Source: an uncultured Candidatus Poseidoniales archaeon
GTDB taxonomy: Archaea > Thermoplasmatota > Poseidoniia > Poseidoniales > Thalassarchaeaceae
Direction: 5' to 3'
NCBI GenBank assembly: GCA_902511005.1
Contig: CABXDN010000003.1
Location: 1 to 64,000 of the forward strand
Length of the DNA: 64,000 nt
The position numbers and the translations under genes were made by a program. Below are positions 1-64,000 of the stretch, piece by piece (the stretch's first letter is position 1; each line of letters starts with the position of its first letter). The notes under the pieces were generated by a model. That model made no database searches. It saw only the letters and a program-made list of their open reading frames with translations, and was not told the DNA's origin.

Positions 1-582
1 ATCAATATCAATATTCATTTTTTCTTCATCTATTGAAGAAGTTTTAGAGGTCTTTTCTAACTTCTTAGAAATCCAATCATCTACTGGCCCAGGTTTACCG
101 ATTCCTGGCCCGTATCCAAATTTAATCTTGTGAATAAGTGCTAATTTGGTCAGCCAAACATGCCTCATTGTATGCATAAATTCATTTTGAGTTAGCCCAT
201 CAAACCAAATCGGTCTTGAAAGATTGAAGGCTTGGAGGGGGCCTGGTGTTTCATCTTTTTTCCCTATATGGAGAACCCAGTCTAAATCTGCTTGAGTTAG
301 AAGAATTCTAGTATCATGCAACCAAGTTCCCCAACCATGTTGATCTGTAGAATAATGATCTTTCATTTCTGATTGTTGTCCGTCATCTACGCGAGTTATA
401 GAATATATCAATACTAAATTTCTATTTTTAGGTATAACGATATTGAATACATGTGCGGCCTTTGTAGGAGGATAACGAACATGTAAATGAAGGAAGTTTT
501 GAGGGTCTTTTACCTCTCTTGTTTCTAGTTTTTCACTACTGAGCCATTTTCTAATAGCATCAGCGGCCCCCGTCTCATCCAT
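1..582 (-). CDS. Uncharacterised protein, 3' end cut by window edge
   Basis: An open frame of 194 codons runs from an ATG at 582 to the window edge without a stop, so the C-terminus is missing. The visible protein is soluble, with no signal peptide or membrane segment. It starts MDETGAADAIRKWL, has a beta-rich middle (HVFNIVIPKNRNLVLIYS) and an aromatic, acidic second half, and becomes Lys/Ser-rich near the edge. I do not recognise the family; the small alpha/beta layout recalls archaeal DUF2299-type proteins, which is only a guess. It lies 20 bases downstream of the acyltransferase stop on the same strand, so the two may be co-transcribed. Confidence 0.7.
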   Translation of the reverse strand, partial: MDETGAADAIRKWLSSEKLETREVKDPQNFLHLHVRYPPTKAAHVFNIVIPKNRNLVLIYSITRVDDGQQSEMKDHYSTDQHGWGTWLHDTRILLTQADLDWVLHIGKKDETPGPLQAFNLSRPIWFDGLTQNEFMHTMRHVWLTKLALIHKIKFGYGPGIGKPGPVDDWISKKLEKTSKTSSIDEEKMNIDID

Positions 583-602
583 AGTCACTGATTACCGCCA
601 CC

Positions 603-2096
603 CTATATGAGAAGTCCTAATTGTGAATTCAAATTCTTAATCAGTAATTCAAATCTTACACCGGCTTCGGATTTAGATAATTTGGCTCTAATTATTGCCG
701 TACTATAATCCGACCAAAGATCATACCCTCGTAAAAATATTAATGAGGAAAAGTAGAAAGTAAAAATAGTACATATAACTGCAAAGACACCCAGGGTTGA
801 AAGTAAGTTTAGATCGGATATAGCAATTAATAAAATAGACATTAATGGCCAAAAGAATATCGGAGAAAATATTCCAGCTAAAAAGAAATATGTAGTCCTT
901 GCATCTTGGCCTTCATCACTTTTTTCTGCCATATATCGAGCAAGAATTGATTGGATTCCGGAACCCAGTATGCTGGGAATTAGTGTGAGGCTCATCAATA
1001 ATATACCAGTTATTGCCCTAATTCGGGACTTTGGGTTTAATTTTTTCAATTTATAATCTAACCCTATTGAACTGCAATCGAGGTTATGCGAATGAAGGAT
1101 TTCGGCCGCTTCAATTGCTTCGGGAAGAATCTTTTCGAAATCAGAATTTTCTTTATTATCGTCCCTTATATTTCTTGTCGAGAGTACTTCTTCACGAAGT
1201 GTAGTAAAGGGTTGTTGATTATCTATAGCCTTGAGATTAGCAATCAATTTCAACGCTCTGAATGTTTCCCAATCAGGAGAATCAGGAGTTAAGGGAGAAA
1301 TTGCGTTAAACATTTGGTCTTTCAAATCATGAACTGCAGAAGATGGAGGTTCAATCCATTCTCCTGCCGCTAATTTGATTGATTCTTCCTTGTCAAAAAC
1401 TAAATTTATATCAATTGGTTTCGAATACTCTACAAAACAACCGGTTCTAAACCAGTAATGTGTCGTCCAATGAAGCCCCGTCGGTTGGATTACTGGCGGA
1501 GGATTTCCTCTCTCATTGGCTATTGCTGCCGCAACTAAACCTGCGCGAGCTGCCCCGGTCCTCAATGCATGTAATTTTGAATCTTGATGGGATTTCCCTT
1601 CGGGCATTATTACTGCGCCGTGCCCTCCAGCCAGGCAATTAGCAATTGTCAACATACTTCTATCATTGATTTTTCTAGCAAATTCAGGATCTGTTAATCC
1701 AGCCTCTACCTCTGCTTTTCTTAGAACAGGTTGTGCACCATTTCTACGTGACCACCAGCCAATAATTGGTCCTGTGATTAAATCGTGTCGTCCGAGAGAG
1801 ATGATGCGTTTTTTTTGTGTCTTGATCATCACGCCAGCATCAACCAATCCATTGATATGGGTTGCCACTGAAATTCTACCTCCTGGATTTGAAGGAATCT
1901 TATCAGATTCAAAGGTTCGGAATATTATTGAAGTACCTGAGGAAATCATTATTCGAAATATTTGTCCAAAAAAGTAGTTACCAGGGTGAGTGCCATCAAG
2001 ACTGTACGGGGCTTTTTCTAACTTTTTTCGATTAAAGTTGTGTGCTGCTGCTGATAATTCTGGGAGAATCTCAGGGGCGCTGCTAGGGTCTGTCAC
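603..2096 (-). CDS. Glycerolipid-type acyltransferase (PlsC/GPAT superfamily) with C-terminal membrane domain
   Basis: This 497-residue protein carries the acyltransferase signature. A His-x5-Asp block (THINGLVDAGVM, H80 and D86) replaces the usual H-x4-D, and a substrate-binding PEG block (VIMPEGKSHQDSKLHALRTG) sits near residue 165. Both look more like fungal glycerol-3-phosphate acyltransferases of the Gat1/Sct1 type (HANQFVDP, FPEGGSHD, recalled from memory) than bacterial PlsC. The last 140 residues hold about three membrane segments (roughly 361-385, 402-426, 431-456). The family moves acyl chains from acyl-CoA or acyl-ACP to glycerol phosphate or lysophospholipid at the membrane. An archaeal isoprenoid-ether pathway does not need this, which makes the substrate an open question. 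The catalytic call is firm; the exact substrate is not. Confidence 0.8.
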   Translation of the reverse strand: MTDPSSAPEILPELSAAAHNFNRKKLEKAPYSLDGTHPGNYFFGQIFRIMISSGTSIIFRTFESDKIPSNPGGRISVATHINGLVDAGVMIKTQKKRIISLGRHDLITGPIIGWWSRRNGAQPVLRKAEVEAGLTDPEFARKINDRSMLTIANCLAGGHGAVIMPEGKSHQDSKLHALRTGAARAGLVAAAIANERGNPPPVIQPTGLHWTTHYWFRTGCFVEYSKPIDINLVFDKEESIKLAAGEWIEPPSSAVHDLKDQMFNAISPLTPDSPDWETFRALKLIANLKAIDNQQPFTTLREEVLSTRNIRDDNKENSDFEKILPEAIEAAEILHSHNLDCSSIGLDYKLKKLNPKSRIRAITGILLMSLTLIPSILGSGIQSILARYMAEKSDEGQDARTTYFFLAGIFSPIFFWPLMSILLIAISDLNLLSTLGVFAVICTIFTFYFSSLIFLRGYDLWSDYSTAIIRAKLSKSEAGVRFELLIKNLNSQLGLLI

Positions 2097-2148: not shown

Positions 2149-2442
2149 TTAGGTTATTGAAGGGAGATACTCTTCATTTTGAATTCGTCGCTCTAACCAA
2201 ATAGGGCCCCCAGGTAAAATTGAAAGGAATCCACCTAAAATCACAGCACGGATATTCCATTCTTTTCGAATATATCCGATACCAAGCAAGGCAATATAGA
2301 TTATCCAAAGAAATCCATGGATTGGTCCTATGACCTCGACTAGGATTTCATTTCCACCAATATATTTCAACGGCATAGCAATGAAGAATAAACTAACGGC
2401 CGAACCACTTTCTGCGATACCCGCCATATTGAAAAAACGCAT
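2149..2442 (-). CDS. Small DUF3817-like membrane protein
   Basis: A 97-residue protein with about three hydrophobic segments, the conserved-looking GPIHGFLWIIYIALLG block and a charged C-terminus. The His-Gly pair after a first helix is typical of DUF3817 integral membrane proteins, whose function is unknown. I chose the ATG at 2442 because a purine-rich GAGGG lies a few bases upstream; the longer frame would need a TTG. It starts 20 bases after the stop of the SdhA-like flavoprotein on the same strand, so the pair probably forms an operon. Confidence 0.6.
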   Translation of the reverse strand: MRFFNMAGIAESGSAVSLFFIAMPLKYIGGNEILVEVIGPIHGFLWIIYIALLGIGYIRKEWNIRAVILGGFLSILPGGPIWLERRIQNEEYLPSIT

Positions 2443-2462
2443 TTTTTCCCTCAATTAATGCT

Positions 2463-3878
2463 TTAGGTTATTGCTGCTGATTCTAGGATACTAAATACTG
2501 CATTTATTTGTATTGCTCTAAGGAGTTCGGTATTCATTGCCTTGGAATCATCTGTTAACCCTATCTGAATTTTCTTAAGCTCTTTGATGGAAGATAATGT
2601 AGATTGATTAATACTATCGATATTTTTTGCTATTGCTGAAACTTTCTTTGAAATTTCCCCAACTGACGGGCCGTTTGAAGAATAATATTTATCAATTTTA
2701 TTCGATGTTTTGGCTAATTCTTTGGATATTTTCTCGCTTCCGCCAAACTGTACTGTTTGAGACCATGTTCCGGCATCGCTACCCGCTGCCTCTCCTGTAA
2801 CTAGATCTTCCAATTGTAAATTTCCTGACAAATAACCTTCGCCATGCATTCCAGTGTTTGCAGAACGCCCTGCCGCATAGAGGCCTGTGAACCACATAGT
2901 TTCAGACTTGAAAGTGACTCTGCCTCTCTCATCAACTGGAGCGCCCCCTAATGTAAACGCTACCGTTTCTGTAAGTGGTATAACATCTAATAATGGATTT
3001 AATCCTGTTCTTTCTTCGACCCTACGGATGGTCTGGGCATACCATACTTGGGCATCTGAATCTAGACTTCTTAAATCCAGTACGCAGTCTTCATCTGTCA
3101 TATTTTCGCCAGGTATTATATCTTGCCCAGACTCTGTTCTATATCTCCCCCCTGCACTAAGAATATCGATAGGTAGATGGAGATTCGTGCCTCGAACAGT
3201 TAGTTGATGCTTGGGAATGTTTGACACACCTCGAAGTTTAATGCCAGCTGAGGCAGCCAGTGCTGACCCTGTACCTGGTCCTTCTGATAAATCAGACCAA
3301 AGTCCTTGGTATCCTTCTGTCGCTAAAATTACTGCTTTTGCTTGTATTGCAAAAACCTCTCCAGACTGTGAATTCAATGCTGTGATTCCTCTTACTTGCT
3401 TATTATCCATAACTAAAGATAATGTCTGTAAATCTGTTCTTCTGACTATTCCTCTTTTGATTACTTGTTCCTCGAGAATTCTTGTTACTTCTCGGGAGGT
3501 CGAGTCTCCACATCCTACTAGTCTGGGGCGAGTATGGCCGTTTCCTGTTGAAGCGAATGGTAAACCTCCGTCTCGCCTTTGAAGGACCAGTCCCCAATTT
3601 TCTAATTGCGCTAATACGCCAATTCCTTTTCCGCATATTCTCGCTATAGCTGATTTATCCGATGAGTCTCCTCCTAGCAGAATAGTATCATCTCGATGAG
3701 CTGTTGAGTCTACTTCATCAAAAGAAATAGCAATGCCACTAACTGGTGCTGCTCCTGTTGCAGAACCTATACTTCCACTGTCTATCATAATTGGTTTTGT
3801 ACCTGCATCGGAAGATGCTATCGCTGCGCGAAGAGCCGCTGGGCCACTACCAATAATTACAACATCCCAAGATTCCAT
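2463..3878 (-). CDS. FAD-dependent oxidoreductase, SdhA/FrdA-like, shortened
   Basis: The 471-residue protein opens with a dinucleotide-binding strand (DVVIIGSGPAALRAAIASS). It ends its flavoprotein core with the block GLYAAGRSANTGMHGEGYL followed by GNLQLEDLVTGEAAG, which matches the FAD-binding end of the succinate dehydrogenase/fumarate reductase flavoprotein family. It is about 100 residues shorter than a normal SdhA, and I see no His in the place where SdhA attaches FAD covalently. No iron-sulfur or membrane-anchor subunit gene is adjacent. It may therefore be a soluble reductase or an L-aspartate-oxidase-like enzyme rather than complex II. The final ~90 residues are helical and Lys/Ser-rich, as in the SdhA C-terminal domain. 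Family confident, substrate unknown. Confidence 0.7.
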   Translation of the reverse strand: MESWDVVIIGSGPAALRAAIASSDAGTKPIMIDSGSIGSATGAAPVSGIAISFDEVDSTAHRDDTILLGGDSSDKSAIARICGKGIGVLAQLENWGLVLQRRDGGLPFASTGNGHTRPRLVGCGDSTSREVTRILEEQVIKRGIVRRTDLQTLSLVMDNKQVRGITALNSQSGEVFAIQAKAVILATEGYQGLWSDLSEGPGTGSALAASAGIKLRGVSNIPKHQLTVRGTNLHLPIDILSAGGRYRTESGQDIIPGENMTDEDCVLDLRSLDSDAQVWYAQTIRRVEERTGLNPLLDVIPLTETVAFTLGGAPVDERGRVTFKSETMWFTGLYAAGRSANTGMHGEGYLSGNLQLEDLVTGEAAGSDAGTWSQTVQFGGSEKISKELAKTSNKIDKYYSSNGPSVGEISKKVSAIAKNIDSINQSTLSSIKELKKIQIGLTDDSKAMNTELLRAIQINAVFSILESAAIT

Positions 3879-16214: not shown

Positions 16215-17594
16215 ATGGACGAATGGAAAAAACCTATTGATTCGGGGAAAATTCCTGAGTCAGGGGCGCATTTTGACGTGATCGTTGTTGGAGGGGGTCC
16301 CGGCGGGTCTGCTGCTGCTGCTTACAATGCTTTGAATGGTTGTAAGGTTCTTCTAATCGAGAAAGAAATATGGCCAAGAGATAAAATCTGTGGTGACGCA
16401 GTTGGCGGAAAATCTCTTTCTCATGTCAAAGAATTGGGGGTTTTGGATATGATTGAGTCGACCCCTCACTATGTTGTCGATTCTATAGTATTCGGCAGTG
16501 CAAACGGAGCCGAAGTACGTGTCATGCTTCCCGAAGAAGCATATGAAAAAATGGGGTTGCAATCTGGTTATTCTTTACCAAGAATGCAATTTGATTATAT
16601 GATGTTCAAGAGAGCGCAAGAAATCGTCAGAGAAAACGGCGGCGCGGTGATTCAAGGATTTTCTGTCAACGAAATAAAAGTAGAAAAAACCGAAAATAGC
16701 CATAAAATTACTGGAATTACTGGAAACATTGGAGGTGCAAGGTCAGGCAATGAAAACATGTCTTTCACTTCTGCTATTACTATAGGCGCGGGAGGTTATA
16801 ATTGCCCTGTTTCTCGGGTAATTACTGAATTACATGGTGAAGACCATAGAGATGATGATCATTTCTGCGGAGGATATCGCGAATATTGGGACGATGTAGA
16901 AGGTTTAGGTGGAGAAAAAGGAGCTATTGAAATACATTTCATAGACGAAGTTTTACCTGGATACTTTTGGTTATTCCCAGTACAAGGAAATAGAGTTAAT
17001 GTTGGAATTGGCATGTTAATTTCTGAACATAGAAAATTAAAAGGAGACAAAAAGAAATCCTTAAAGAAAATACAAAAATGGGTAATCAATGAACATCCTA
17101 GATTTAAAGAAAGATTTGCTAATTCGACTTTGGTTCCGGGGTCGGAAAAAGGATGGCAGTTACCTTTCGGCTCTCCGAGGAAAAATCCGTCGCCTCTCTA
17201 TCAACCTAGAAGAACTGCTATGGCGGGAGCAATGTGTGTAGGGGATGCTGCGAGTTTAGTGGACCCATTCAGTGGAGAAGGGATCGGGAACGCTTTACTG
17301 TCAGCAAAATTAACTGCATCACATTTTGATAAAGATCTTCATAAAGAGGGTTTTACTGAAGATGCCGGTACCGAATATATGGTCGCATTATGGGCGGCTT
17401 TGGGCTCAGAATTAACAAATTCAAAGACATTGCAAAAAGTTATGAAATGGAAACTTTTGACTAATTGGTTCGTTAAGAAAGCATCGAAGAAAGAGGAGAT
17501 TGGGAAGATGATGTCTGAAATGATTGCTAGTAAAGAAAGTCAGACAAAATTATGGAGCCCGTGGTTTTTGATGAGGACATTATTACTTCCTTAG
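16215..17594 (+). CDS. Geranylgeranyl reductase-family FAD oxidoreductase
   Basis: A 459-residue flavoprotein with an N-terminal FAD fold (FDVIVVGGGPGGSAAAAYNA), the family block RDKICGDAVGGKSL, the GYFWLFPVQGNRVNVGIGM stretch and the FAD-closing motif VGDAASLVDPFSGEGIGNAL. In archaea these enzymes saturate the isoprenoid chains of membrane ether lipids, or reduce related prenyl groups. That fits the GGGP synthase gene elsewhere in the window. It is followed 12 bases later by a HAD phosphatase on the same strand. Confidence 0.88.
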   Translation: MDEWKKPIDSGKIPESGAHFDVIVVGGGPGGSAAAAYNALNGCKVLLIEKEIWPRDKICGDAVGGKSLSHVKELGVLDMIESTPHYVVDSIVFGSANGAEVRVMLPEEAYEKMGLQSGYSLPRMQFDYMMFKRAQEIVRENGGAVIQGFSVNEIKVEKTENSHKITGITGNIGGARSGNENMSFTSAITIGAGGYNCPVSRVITELHGEDHRDDDHFCGGYREYWDDVEGLGGEKGAIEIHFIDEVLPGYFWLFPVQGNRVNVGIGMLISEHRKLKGDKKKSLKKIQKWVINEHPRFKERFANSTLVPGSEKGWQLPFGSPRKNPSPLYQPRRTAMAGAMCVGDAASLVDPFSGEGIGNALLSAKLTASHFDKDLHKEGFTEDAGTEYMVALWAALGSELTNSKTLQKVMKWKLLTNWFVKKASKKEEIGKMMSEMIASKESQTKLWSPWFLMRTLLLP

Positions 17595-42510: not shown

Positions 42511-43323
42511 ATGAGCGGAGTCGACAGTCAGACATTAGAGCATGTTTGTAACCCAAATGAAAACACCCGTCACGCCATACTGATAGACCCTGCAGATCAA
42601 ACACCAGATACGGCGGCTAAAAGAGCAGTAGCAGCCGTAGCTGCTGGGAGTAAAATGATACTCGTAGGCGGCTCCAGTGATACAGACATGAAAAATGTGA
42701 ATGAGACAGTAATTGCCATTCAAGAAGCACTTGAATTGGTTGCTTGGGCATCTTCACAGGATTCCGATTTAGATGAAAAAAATTGGAAAGTACCTGTAGT
42801 TCTTTTTCCACAGGGCGCTGCTGCATTGTCGCCCGCCGCAGATGCGATAACTTTCATGATGCTGATGAATAGCAAATCTCCCCGATTTTTAATTGAAGAA
42901 CAAGTAGCGGGAGCCCTATACATCAAACAAGCGCAAATCGCACCACTTCCCATGGGGTACATTATTTGCGCCCCTGGTGGGAAAGCAGGGGAAGTAGGGA
43001 TGGCAGACTTGATTCAGCCCGAAGATACCGAAAGAGTATCTGCTTATGCAGTAACCGCGGAATATTATGGATTCAAAATAATATATTTAGAGGCAGGTAG
43101 TGGGGCTGAAAACCCAGTATCTCCAGATCTAATAAAAGCAGCAAGAGAATCTTGCAATCTAACGATTGTAGTCGGTGGAGGGATAAGACAGGGAGAAACC
43201 GCCAAAATAGCCGCTGAATCAGGCGCTGATTGGATAATAACTGGTAACTTGACTGAATCATTTGATAATGCCGACGAACTCCAAAAAACTTTGACGGATT
43301 TTATTTCGAAAATGAATAGTTAA
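42511..43323 (+). CDS. Geranylgeranylglyceryl phosphate synthase
   Basis: A 270-residue TIM-barrel prenyltransferase that joins geranylgeranyl diphosphate to glycerol-1-phosphate, the first committed step of archaeal ether lipids. Diagnostic blocks are HAILIDPADQTPD, ILVGGSSDTD, VVLFPQGAAALSPAADAITF, IYLEAGSGAENPV, IVVGGGIRQGETA and WIITGNLTESF. Length suits the archaeal (group II-like) form. The stop overlaps that of the convergent coiled-coil gene by three bases. It shows that the organism makes standard archaeal lipids despite the acyltransferase at 603-2096. Confidence 0.94.
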   Translation: MSGVDSQTLEHVCNPNENTRHAILIDPADQTPDTAAKRAVAAVAAGSKMILVGGSSDTDMKNVNETVIAIQEALELVAWASSQDSDLDEKNWKVPVVLFPQGAAALSPAADAITFMMLMNSKSPRFLIEEQVAGALYIKQAQIAPLPMGYIICAPGGKAGEVGMADLIQPEDTERVSAYAVTAEYYGFKIIYLEAGSGAENPVSPDLIKAARESCNLTIVVGGGIRQGETAKIAAESGADWIITGNLTESFDNADELQKTLTDFISKMNS

Positions 43324-63204: not shown

Positions 63205-63960
63205 TCAGAAATAACTTCTTACAATAGTAAGGAACATTAAGCCGCCGTTGAATCCAAATATTAACTCAGGTAATAATTCAATTTCTGAATTAAGCGCTAA
63301 TATTAGAATCAATATAGATTGAAAGCCATATCCTAATAGTGACGAAACAGTCAATTCAAATGATAAATCTTTACTCCCTTTCCCAACTATGAAATCTACA
63401 ATCTGATCTTGCCAAGAAAACCCGATAAGATATATTTTGTGAAAGAAATCTACATGCTTCTGTTTTTCCCATGGCTGAGCCGTAGGGCAAATTTTTTCAT
63501 TTACTCTACTCGTAGTATCTCCCGAACCAAGAATTCTTGCACGAACAGAGAAATGGTTAAACAAAGAATATTGAAATAAAACAGCTAAGATTAGACTACT
63601 AGTTAGCAAATAATTCCAGTTTAAGAATTGACTAAACGCATACATTACTAGAATCAATCCTATGGTATCGGCAACAGTATCCCAATACCTTCCAACATGC
63701 GAAGGTCTCTTTCTAATTCTCGCTAACTCACCGTCTATAGCATCAATTACTCCTTTTATTACAAGGACAATACATCCTTCTACAATCATTTCTTCGAGAA
63801 TTAACCACGCACAAAAAATAGAAACAAATAGATGAAAATGAGTCACCATTAATACACTTACAGGTGTGTTTTCTAATCTTTTAGCGAAGAATCGGGCAAT
63901 AGGTCGCCCCCAATCAGAAACATCGATAGCACGACTATCCCCATATTTCCCAGTCGCCAT
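63205..63960 (-). CDS. CDP-alcohol phosphatidyltransferase-family protein
   Basis: A 251-residue membrane protein with a perfect CDP-alcohol motif D-G-x2-A-R-x8-G-x3-D-x3-D, beginning at Asp76 (DGELARIRKRPSHVGR then WDTVAD). About six helices are present. The family attaches an alcohol phosphate from a CDP-lipid, for example to make archaeal phosphatidylglycerol- or inositol-type head groups. The alcohol cannot be read from sequence. The ATG at 63960 was chosen; a longer frame begins at 63990. The 137-base gap after the previous gene (63068-63204) shows nothing recognisable. Confidence 0.88.
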   Translation of the reverse strand: MATGKYGDSRAIDVSDWGRPIARFFAKRLENTPVSVLMVTHFHLFVSIFCAWLILEEMIVEGCIVLVIKGVIDAIDGELARIRKRPSHVGRYWDTVADTIGLILVMYAFSQFLNWNYLLTSSLILAVLFQYSLFNHFSVRARILGSGDTTSRVNEKICPTAQPWEKQKHVDFFHKIYLIGFSWQDQIVDFIVGKGSKDLSFELTVSSLLGYGFQSILILILALNSEIELLPELIFGFNGGLMFLTIVRSYF

Positions 63961-64000
63961 ATTTTCACGTCGTTTTGTAAATAAAATCAAACTAATGAAT

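Follow-up and report, generated by a model that had tools for sequence, protein, structure and literature searches.

Does an archaeon that carries genes for isoprenoid ether lipids also encode an enzyme that starts the synthesis of acyl-ester lipids, and on which acceptor would such an enzyme act? This question is raised by a gene near one end of a 64,000-nucleotide stretch of DNA (here, the window) from an uncultured member of the order Poseidoniales, or Marine Group II (MGII), whose genome (1.30 Mb in 35 contigs) is 72% complete. Gene content, a division of the order into two families, and the published record all fit the assignment to MGII. A sequence-only reading of the window had described the product, referred to below as paralog A, as an acyltransferase like the glycerol-3-phosphate acyltransferases (GPATs) of fungi and had suggested that the organism may make both lipid types. 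Several elements of this idea have been published, namely, the absence of glycerol-1-phosphate (G1P) dehydrogenase from MGII, the presence of glycerol-3-phosphate (G3P) dehydrogenase and PlsC, and the idea of a mixed membrane (PMC6962369, PMC7852524, PMC6461757). Mixed membranes were proposed by Villanueva 2017, as cited in PMC6962369, and by Rinke 2018 (PMC6461757); moreover, in waters dominated by MGII, intact archaeal lipids could not be linked to them (PMC6962369). In the open-licence literature, PlsC alone had been named for MGII ester bonds, and we found no report there of an HX5D GPAT candidate or of the megasynthase described below, although the "PlsC" matches of Villanueva 2017, as cited by others, may include the HX5D family. 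The present analysis contributes a candidate enzyme for the first acylation step in MGII, together with a candidate fatty-acid synthase in many genera.

Paralog A is a member of the LPLAT/AGPAT superfamily

The PF01553 match of paralog A, which covers residues 71 to 184 (numbered from the second codon), was just above the curated cut-off (25.3 versus 23 bits). The H-x5-D motif, PEG-SH block, and C-terminal membrane domain of the sequence-only reading were all found (H79/D85, MPEGKSH, and hydrophobic segments in the C-terminal third), as was a GLHW...FR block. Across 62 aligned homologs from archaea and bacteria, H79, D85, R125, P164, E165, G166, G180, R183, and G206 were invariant; the bacterial rows had been retrieved with a DNA pattern for PEGxSHD...TGAA, a choice that biases the conservation seen at the columns concerned. 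Outside this pattern, and nonetheless common to the bacterial rows, were the H-x5-D pair, the motif-II Arg, and the GLxY...FR block. Because most MGII genomes conserve the protein over its entire length, the open reading frame is not a chance one.

The AlphaFold2 (AF2) model (mean pLDDT, 94.1) placed the catalytic His/Asp pair and P164-E165-G166 within a GPAT/PlsC-like predicted fold and showed long C-terminal helices (residues 354 to 391, 397 to 425, and 433 to 473). Fold matches in the PDB at E ≤ 0.001 were confined to human GPAT1 (1e-6), Thermotoga maritima PlsC, squash GPAT, and an algal plastid GPAT, with modest TM-scores to the known GPATs. A family profile search of the PDB matched PlsC (5kym) at 3e-7; GPCR matches in the profile search were discarded as membrane-helix artefacts. 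Searches with paralog A itself gave no match in the PDB (phmmer, single sequence) or in plasmids (tblastn). The profile, fold, and motif evidence thus supported the earlier assignment to acyltransferases of the GPAT/LPAAT type.

Table 1. Features of the window and of one related genome (last line); residues are numbered from the second codon of paralog A
Feature	Position	Strand	Basis or remark
DUF2299-family gene, running off the window start	1..597	-	Kept beside paralog A across MGII; 47% identity to G037 copy
Paralog A, candidate glycerol-3-phosphate acyltransferase (HX5D), 497 aa, GTG start	603..2096	-	ORF, PF01553, homologs, AF2
C-terminal membrane domain, helices about residues 354-473	675..1034	-	Hydropathy; AF2 helices
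Block IV GLHWTTHYWFRT, G206 to T217	1443..1478	-	Alignment of homologs
Motif III PEGKSHQ	1584..1604	-	Alignment of homologs
Motif II QPVLRKA, invariant R125	1713..1733	-	Alignment of homologs
Motif I HINGLVD, H79-x5-D85, predicted catalytic	1839..1859	-	Sequence; H and D invariant in 62 homologs
DUF3817 small membrane protein	2149..2454	-	Occupies place of HIT-domain gene in most relatives
FAD_binding_2 flavoprotein, succinate dehydrogenase/fumarate reductase-like, conserved neighbor	2463..3878	-	Profile; synteny
Geranylgeranyl reductase superfamily protein (archaeal ether-lipid pathway)	16215..17594	+	TIGR02032, 145.6 bits (cut-off 158.8); PF22578 over cut-off
Geranylgeranylglyceryl phosphate (GGGP) synthase	42511..43323	+	TIGR01769, 187 bits, over cut-off
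CDP-alcohol phosphatidyltransferase	63205..63990	-	PF01066, 51.7 bits
PfaA/FAS-like megasynthase, KS-AT-KS-ACPx3-KR-DH	L211:5070-13895 (G037)	-	Also L212, L213

Conservation, gene order, and ancestry in Marine Group II

Either paralog A or a second HX5D acyltransferase, paralog B, was found in 57 of 60 genomes of the order. Orthologs of paralog A ranged from 87% down to about 31 to 35% identity across the order. Paralog B (about 535 aa, with WHPSGLIDP and FPEGxSH motifs) occurs in many MGII genera and is absent from the window's genus; in several genomes it lies about 23 to 32 kb from gpsA. Outside the order, none of the family profile matches in 294 genomes of the phylum reached E < 1e-30, and those obtained (3.4e-25 or weaker) appear to reflect the shared catalytic domain only.

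The gene order DUF2299-paralog A-(HIT)-flavoprotein was preserved across the order in both of its families, including the single-contig genome G037, in which the DUF2299 neighbor matches PF10061 and the genes beyond the flavoprotein (a 512-aa protein and an RFC-like ATPase) likewise match the window. This indicated that paralog A is old and dates back to the ancestor of the order. The same synteny rules out the explanation that a bacterial gene was misassigned to an archaeal genome: the closest relatives found beyond the order come from bacteria, but the MGII sequences form their own clade (100/100), both families show the identical neighborhood, and the contig also carries GGGP synthase and an RFC-type clamp loader. 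The DUF3817 gene stands in the place of the HIT-domain gene of nearly all others only in the window and its closest relative, and the flavoprotein lies near the acyltransferase in many MGII genomes. The genes adjoining paralog A in MGII are not lipid genes, and the neighborhoods of the bacterial homologs (UvrC, a pseudouridine synthase, a diacylglycerol-kinase-like gene, and others) gave no functional hint.

A maximum-likelihood tree was built from archaeal (A and B) and bacterial proteins. Paralogs A and B each formed one clade (100/100) and were deeply split, with MGII A on a long stem branch; together they grouped with one bacterial clade (Myxococcota, Bacteroidota, Rhodothermota, and others) against the remaining bacteria (99/95). 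Neither a single A-plus-B clade (p-AU, 0.27) nor a grouping of B with bacteria (0.36) was rejected. This grouping and the motifs shared outside the search pattern (HX5DP, the motif-II Arg, and GLxY..FRS) place paralog A in a mainly bacterial HX5D acyltransferase family, and a bacterial source would be the simplest reading of a tree that sampled archaea and bacteria only.

Paralog A as a candidate first-step acyltransferase for glycerol-3-phosphate

The presence of GGGP synthase and a CDP-alcohol phosphatidyltransferase in the window, as claimed in the sequence-only reading, was confirmed (TIGR01769 and PF01066); the claimed geranylgeranyl reductase held at the superfamily level (PF22578) but fell slightly under the cut-off of TIGR02032. 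CarS was found in 29 of 30 MGII genomes. A dedicated bacterial CdsA was not evident, as PF01148 matches coincided with CarS genes except for one full-length match; that match, a CTP_transf_1 (CdsA-type) gene in genome G014, sets that genome apart from its relatives and could reflect contamination or transfer.

In the comparison of glycerophosphate dehydrogenases that had been proposed at the outset, G3P dehydrogenase (GpsA) was found in 56 of 60 MGII genomes, with the copy in the window's genome passing the NCBIfam cut-off, and G1P dehydrogenase was over the cut-off in none of the 60, although four archaeal controls were positive. Four weak PF13685 matches (19 to 22 bits), which were under the family cut-off, were not accepted as G1P dehydrogenase. 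PlsY (PF02660) was likewise absent from all 60 MGII genomes, compared to 8 positives, all bacterial, among 14 control genomes. PF01553 proteins were present in all 60, nearly all of which have a short PlsC; the window's genome encodes a separate 255-aa PlsC elsewhere. Directly after this plsC gene come a thymidylate-synthase-like open reading frame and then a dihydrofolate reductase gene (L206:5254-7398, + strand).

Given these counts (PlsY, 0; G1P dehydrogenase, 0; GpsA, 56; A/B, 57; and PF01553, 60, of 60 genomes), the A/B family is the leading candidate for the first acylation of G3P, a step otherwise missing. We consider paralog A to be an HX5D acyltransferase of the LPLAT superfamily that associates with the membrane and whose role is most likely, on a judgment just the better side of even, this first acylation. 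Our confidence goes no higher because we found in the literature no demonstrated function or biochemistry for any prokaryotic member of the HX5D family, and no assayed enzyme.

We infer the substrate, acylated position, acyl donor, and membrane role as follows. G3P would be supplied by the GpsA homolog and held by motif II (R125) and motif III (PEG-x-SH), while the H79/D85 charge-relay pair would activate its sn-1 hydroxyl; block IV would line the acyl site, and the C-terminal helices would anchor the enzyme in the membrane. Phosphatidic acid would result once the 255-aa PlsC had attached a second chain. Paralog A may also accept dihydroxyacetone phosphate (DHAP), which the yeast enzymes Sct1 and Gpt2 also take.

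A different acceptor altogether, such as the precursor of an aminolipid, a glycolipid, or a storage lipid, is an unlikely reading but one that merits some weight, since the SalA protein of roseobacters, which produces a sulfur aminolipid, carries HX5D as well (PMC8319176), the deep split between A and B suggests different substrates, and no lipid genes adjoin paralog A. Against that reading, none of the 60 MGII genomes showed PlsY although G3P dehydrogenase and PF01553 proteins are conserved; moreover, the closest folds are GPATs and PlsC, and the window's genus retains paralog A despite its small genomes. Somewhat less probable still is acylation of the free hydroxyl of GGGP or of another lyso-type ether lipid, giving chimeric ether/ester lipids, an idea that has been published for MGII (PMC6962369) and that accords with the GGGP synthase in the window and the conserved CarS. 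For such a reaction PlsC, also present, would be the more natural sn-2 acyltransferase, and the fold and motif spacing of paralog A resemble those of first-step GPATs at least as much. Members of the HX5D family also abound in bacteria, most of which are not known to make ether lipids of this kind.

Potential acyl donors

An AMP-binding ligase was found in 39 of 40 MGII genomes; the copy in the window's genome is fatty-acid-ligase-like (FadD-like) and under the equivalog cut-offs. A search for acyl-carrier domains led to a single protein of about 2,900 aa (up to 3,058 aa) in many MGII genera. Its domains are KS, AT, a KS-like second domain, two to four ACPs, KR, and a DH-like region, and the profile that it most resembles is TIGR02813 (PfaA; 840 bits versus a cut-off of 1010). 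Genes for a FabI-like enoyl reductase and a phosphopantetheinyl transferase flank it. This megasynthase was present throughout the sampled genera of one family and, in the other, in genera g2, g3, g5, g8, and g11; in the genus-level survey it was absent from the window's genus and five other genera. In the window's own genus, only the FadD-like ligase and no de novo fatty-acid synthase was seen; the window's own genome is only 72% complete. The PfaA-like synthase is a possible acyl source in many MGII genera, but its product could just as well be a special or secondary lipid.

Paralog B was found only in genera with the megasynthase (10 of 12 with and 0 of 6 without; Fisher P value = 0.0015, uncorrected for kinship). 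This distribution suggests that B goes with de novo fatty-acid synthesis and that A may also act in lineages dependent on external fatty acids. Acyl groups would come from the megasynthase where it is present and elsewhere from exogenous fatty acids via the FadD-like ligase.

The search for acyl-carrier genes proposed in the sequence-only reading was thus answered by an acyl-coenzyme A ligase and, in related genera, by a PfaA-like synthase that the window's genus lacks. Its suggestion of two lipid types was partly supported: a candidate GPAT, G3P dehydrogenase, and the ligase are in place, but the acyl synthase is not found in that genus, and the idea had already been published. Whether MGII have a complete G3P ester-phospholipid route of bacterial ancestry (GpsA, HX5D GPAT A and/or B, and PlsC, with the megasynthase, FabI, and phosphopantetheinyl transferase in many genera) beside their ether-lipid genes is a more tentative proposal, and we would rate it as doubtful at present. 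If it is true, the order would live with naturally mixed or largely ester membranes. The HX5D candidate and the putative synthase turn the MGII lipid question into a short list of genes open to expression and assay, with a bearing on the lipid divide that separates archaea from the other domains.

Comparison with known acyltransferases

In a published comparison, HX5D was consistent in fungal GPATs, whereas all other acyltransferases compared had HX4D (PMC4207751). Paralog A shares HX5D, PEG-x-SH, the motif-II Arg, and membrane helices with the yeast-type microsomal GPATs (Sct1/Gat2 and Gpt2/Gat1), but it is shorter, and the window copy begins motif II with Q and motif III with M. The fGPAT-A class (Sct1/Gpt2 proper) has an HxNQF motif I, an FPEGGSHD motif III, and a II-III gap of 97 to 132 residues (PMC4207751, Table 1); paralog A, with HINGLVD lacking QF, MPEGKSHQD, and a gap of 35 residues, falls outside it. 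It lies closer to fGPAT-B, for which the signature is HxN-x-two hydrophobic-D in motif I, P-x-x-R in motif II, and FPEG[TGI]S[HY] in motif III, with spacings of 36 to 40 (I-II), 21 to 104 (II-III), and 29 to 35 (III-IV) residues (PMC4207751). Motif I and the II-III (35) and III-IV (32) spacings fit, the I-II spacing (35) is one residue short, in motif II (QPVLR) the first hydrophobic residue is missing, and motif III is MPEGKSH in the window and FPEGTSH in many orthologs; this likeness is drawn from motif tables. The description of paralog A as fungal-GPAT-like therefore holds for motif spacing but is too narrow: the family occurs widely among bacteria, and the closest relatives that were sampled come from bacteria.

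PlsC (e.g., T. maritima 5KYM) shares the superfamily and the catalytic-domain fold but has HX4D, is about 240 aa long, and lacks the large C-terminal domain. SalA, compared by description only, is an LPAAT-family enzyme that has HX5D, as does paralog A, but its acceptor is a lyso sulfur aminolipid (PMC8319176); motif I alone therefore does not determine the substrate. The bacterial HX5D family (Myxococcota, Acidobacteriota, Verrucomicrobiota, Bacteroidota, Actinomycetota, and others) has all of the motifs in common with paralog A and, at about 20% identity, the same kind of C-terminal extension with hydrophobic helices.
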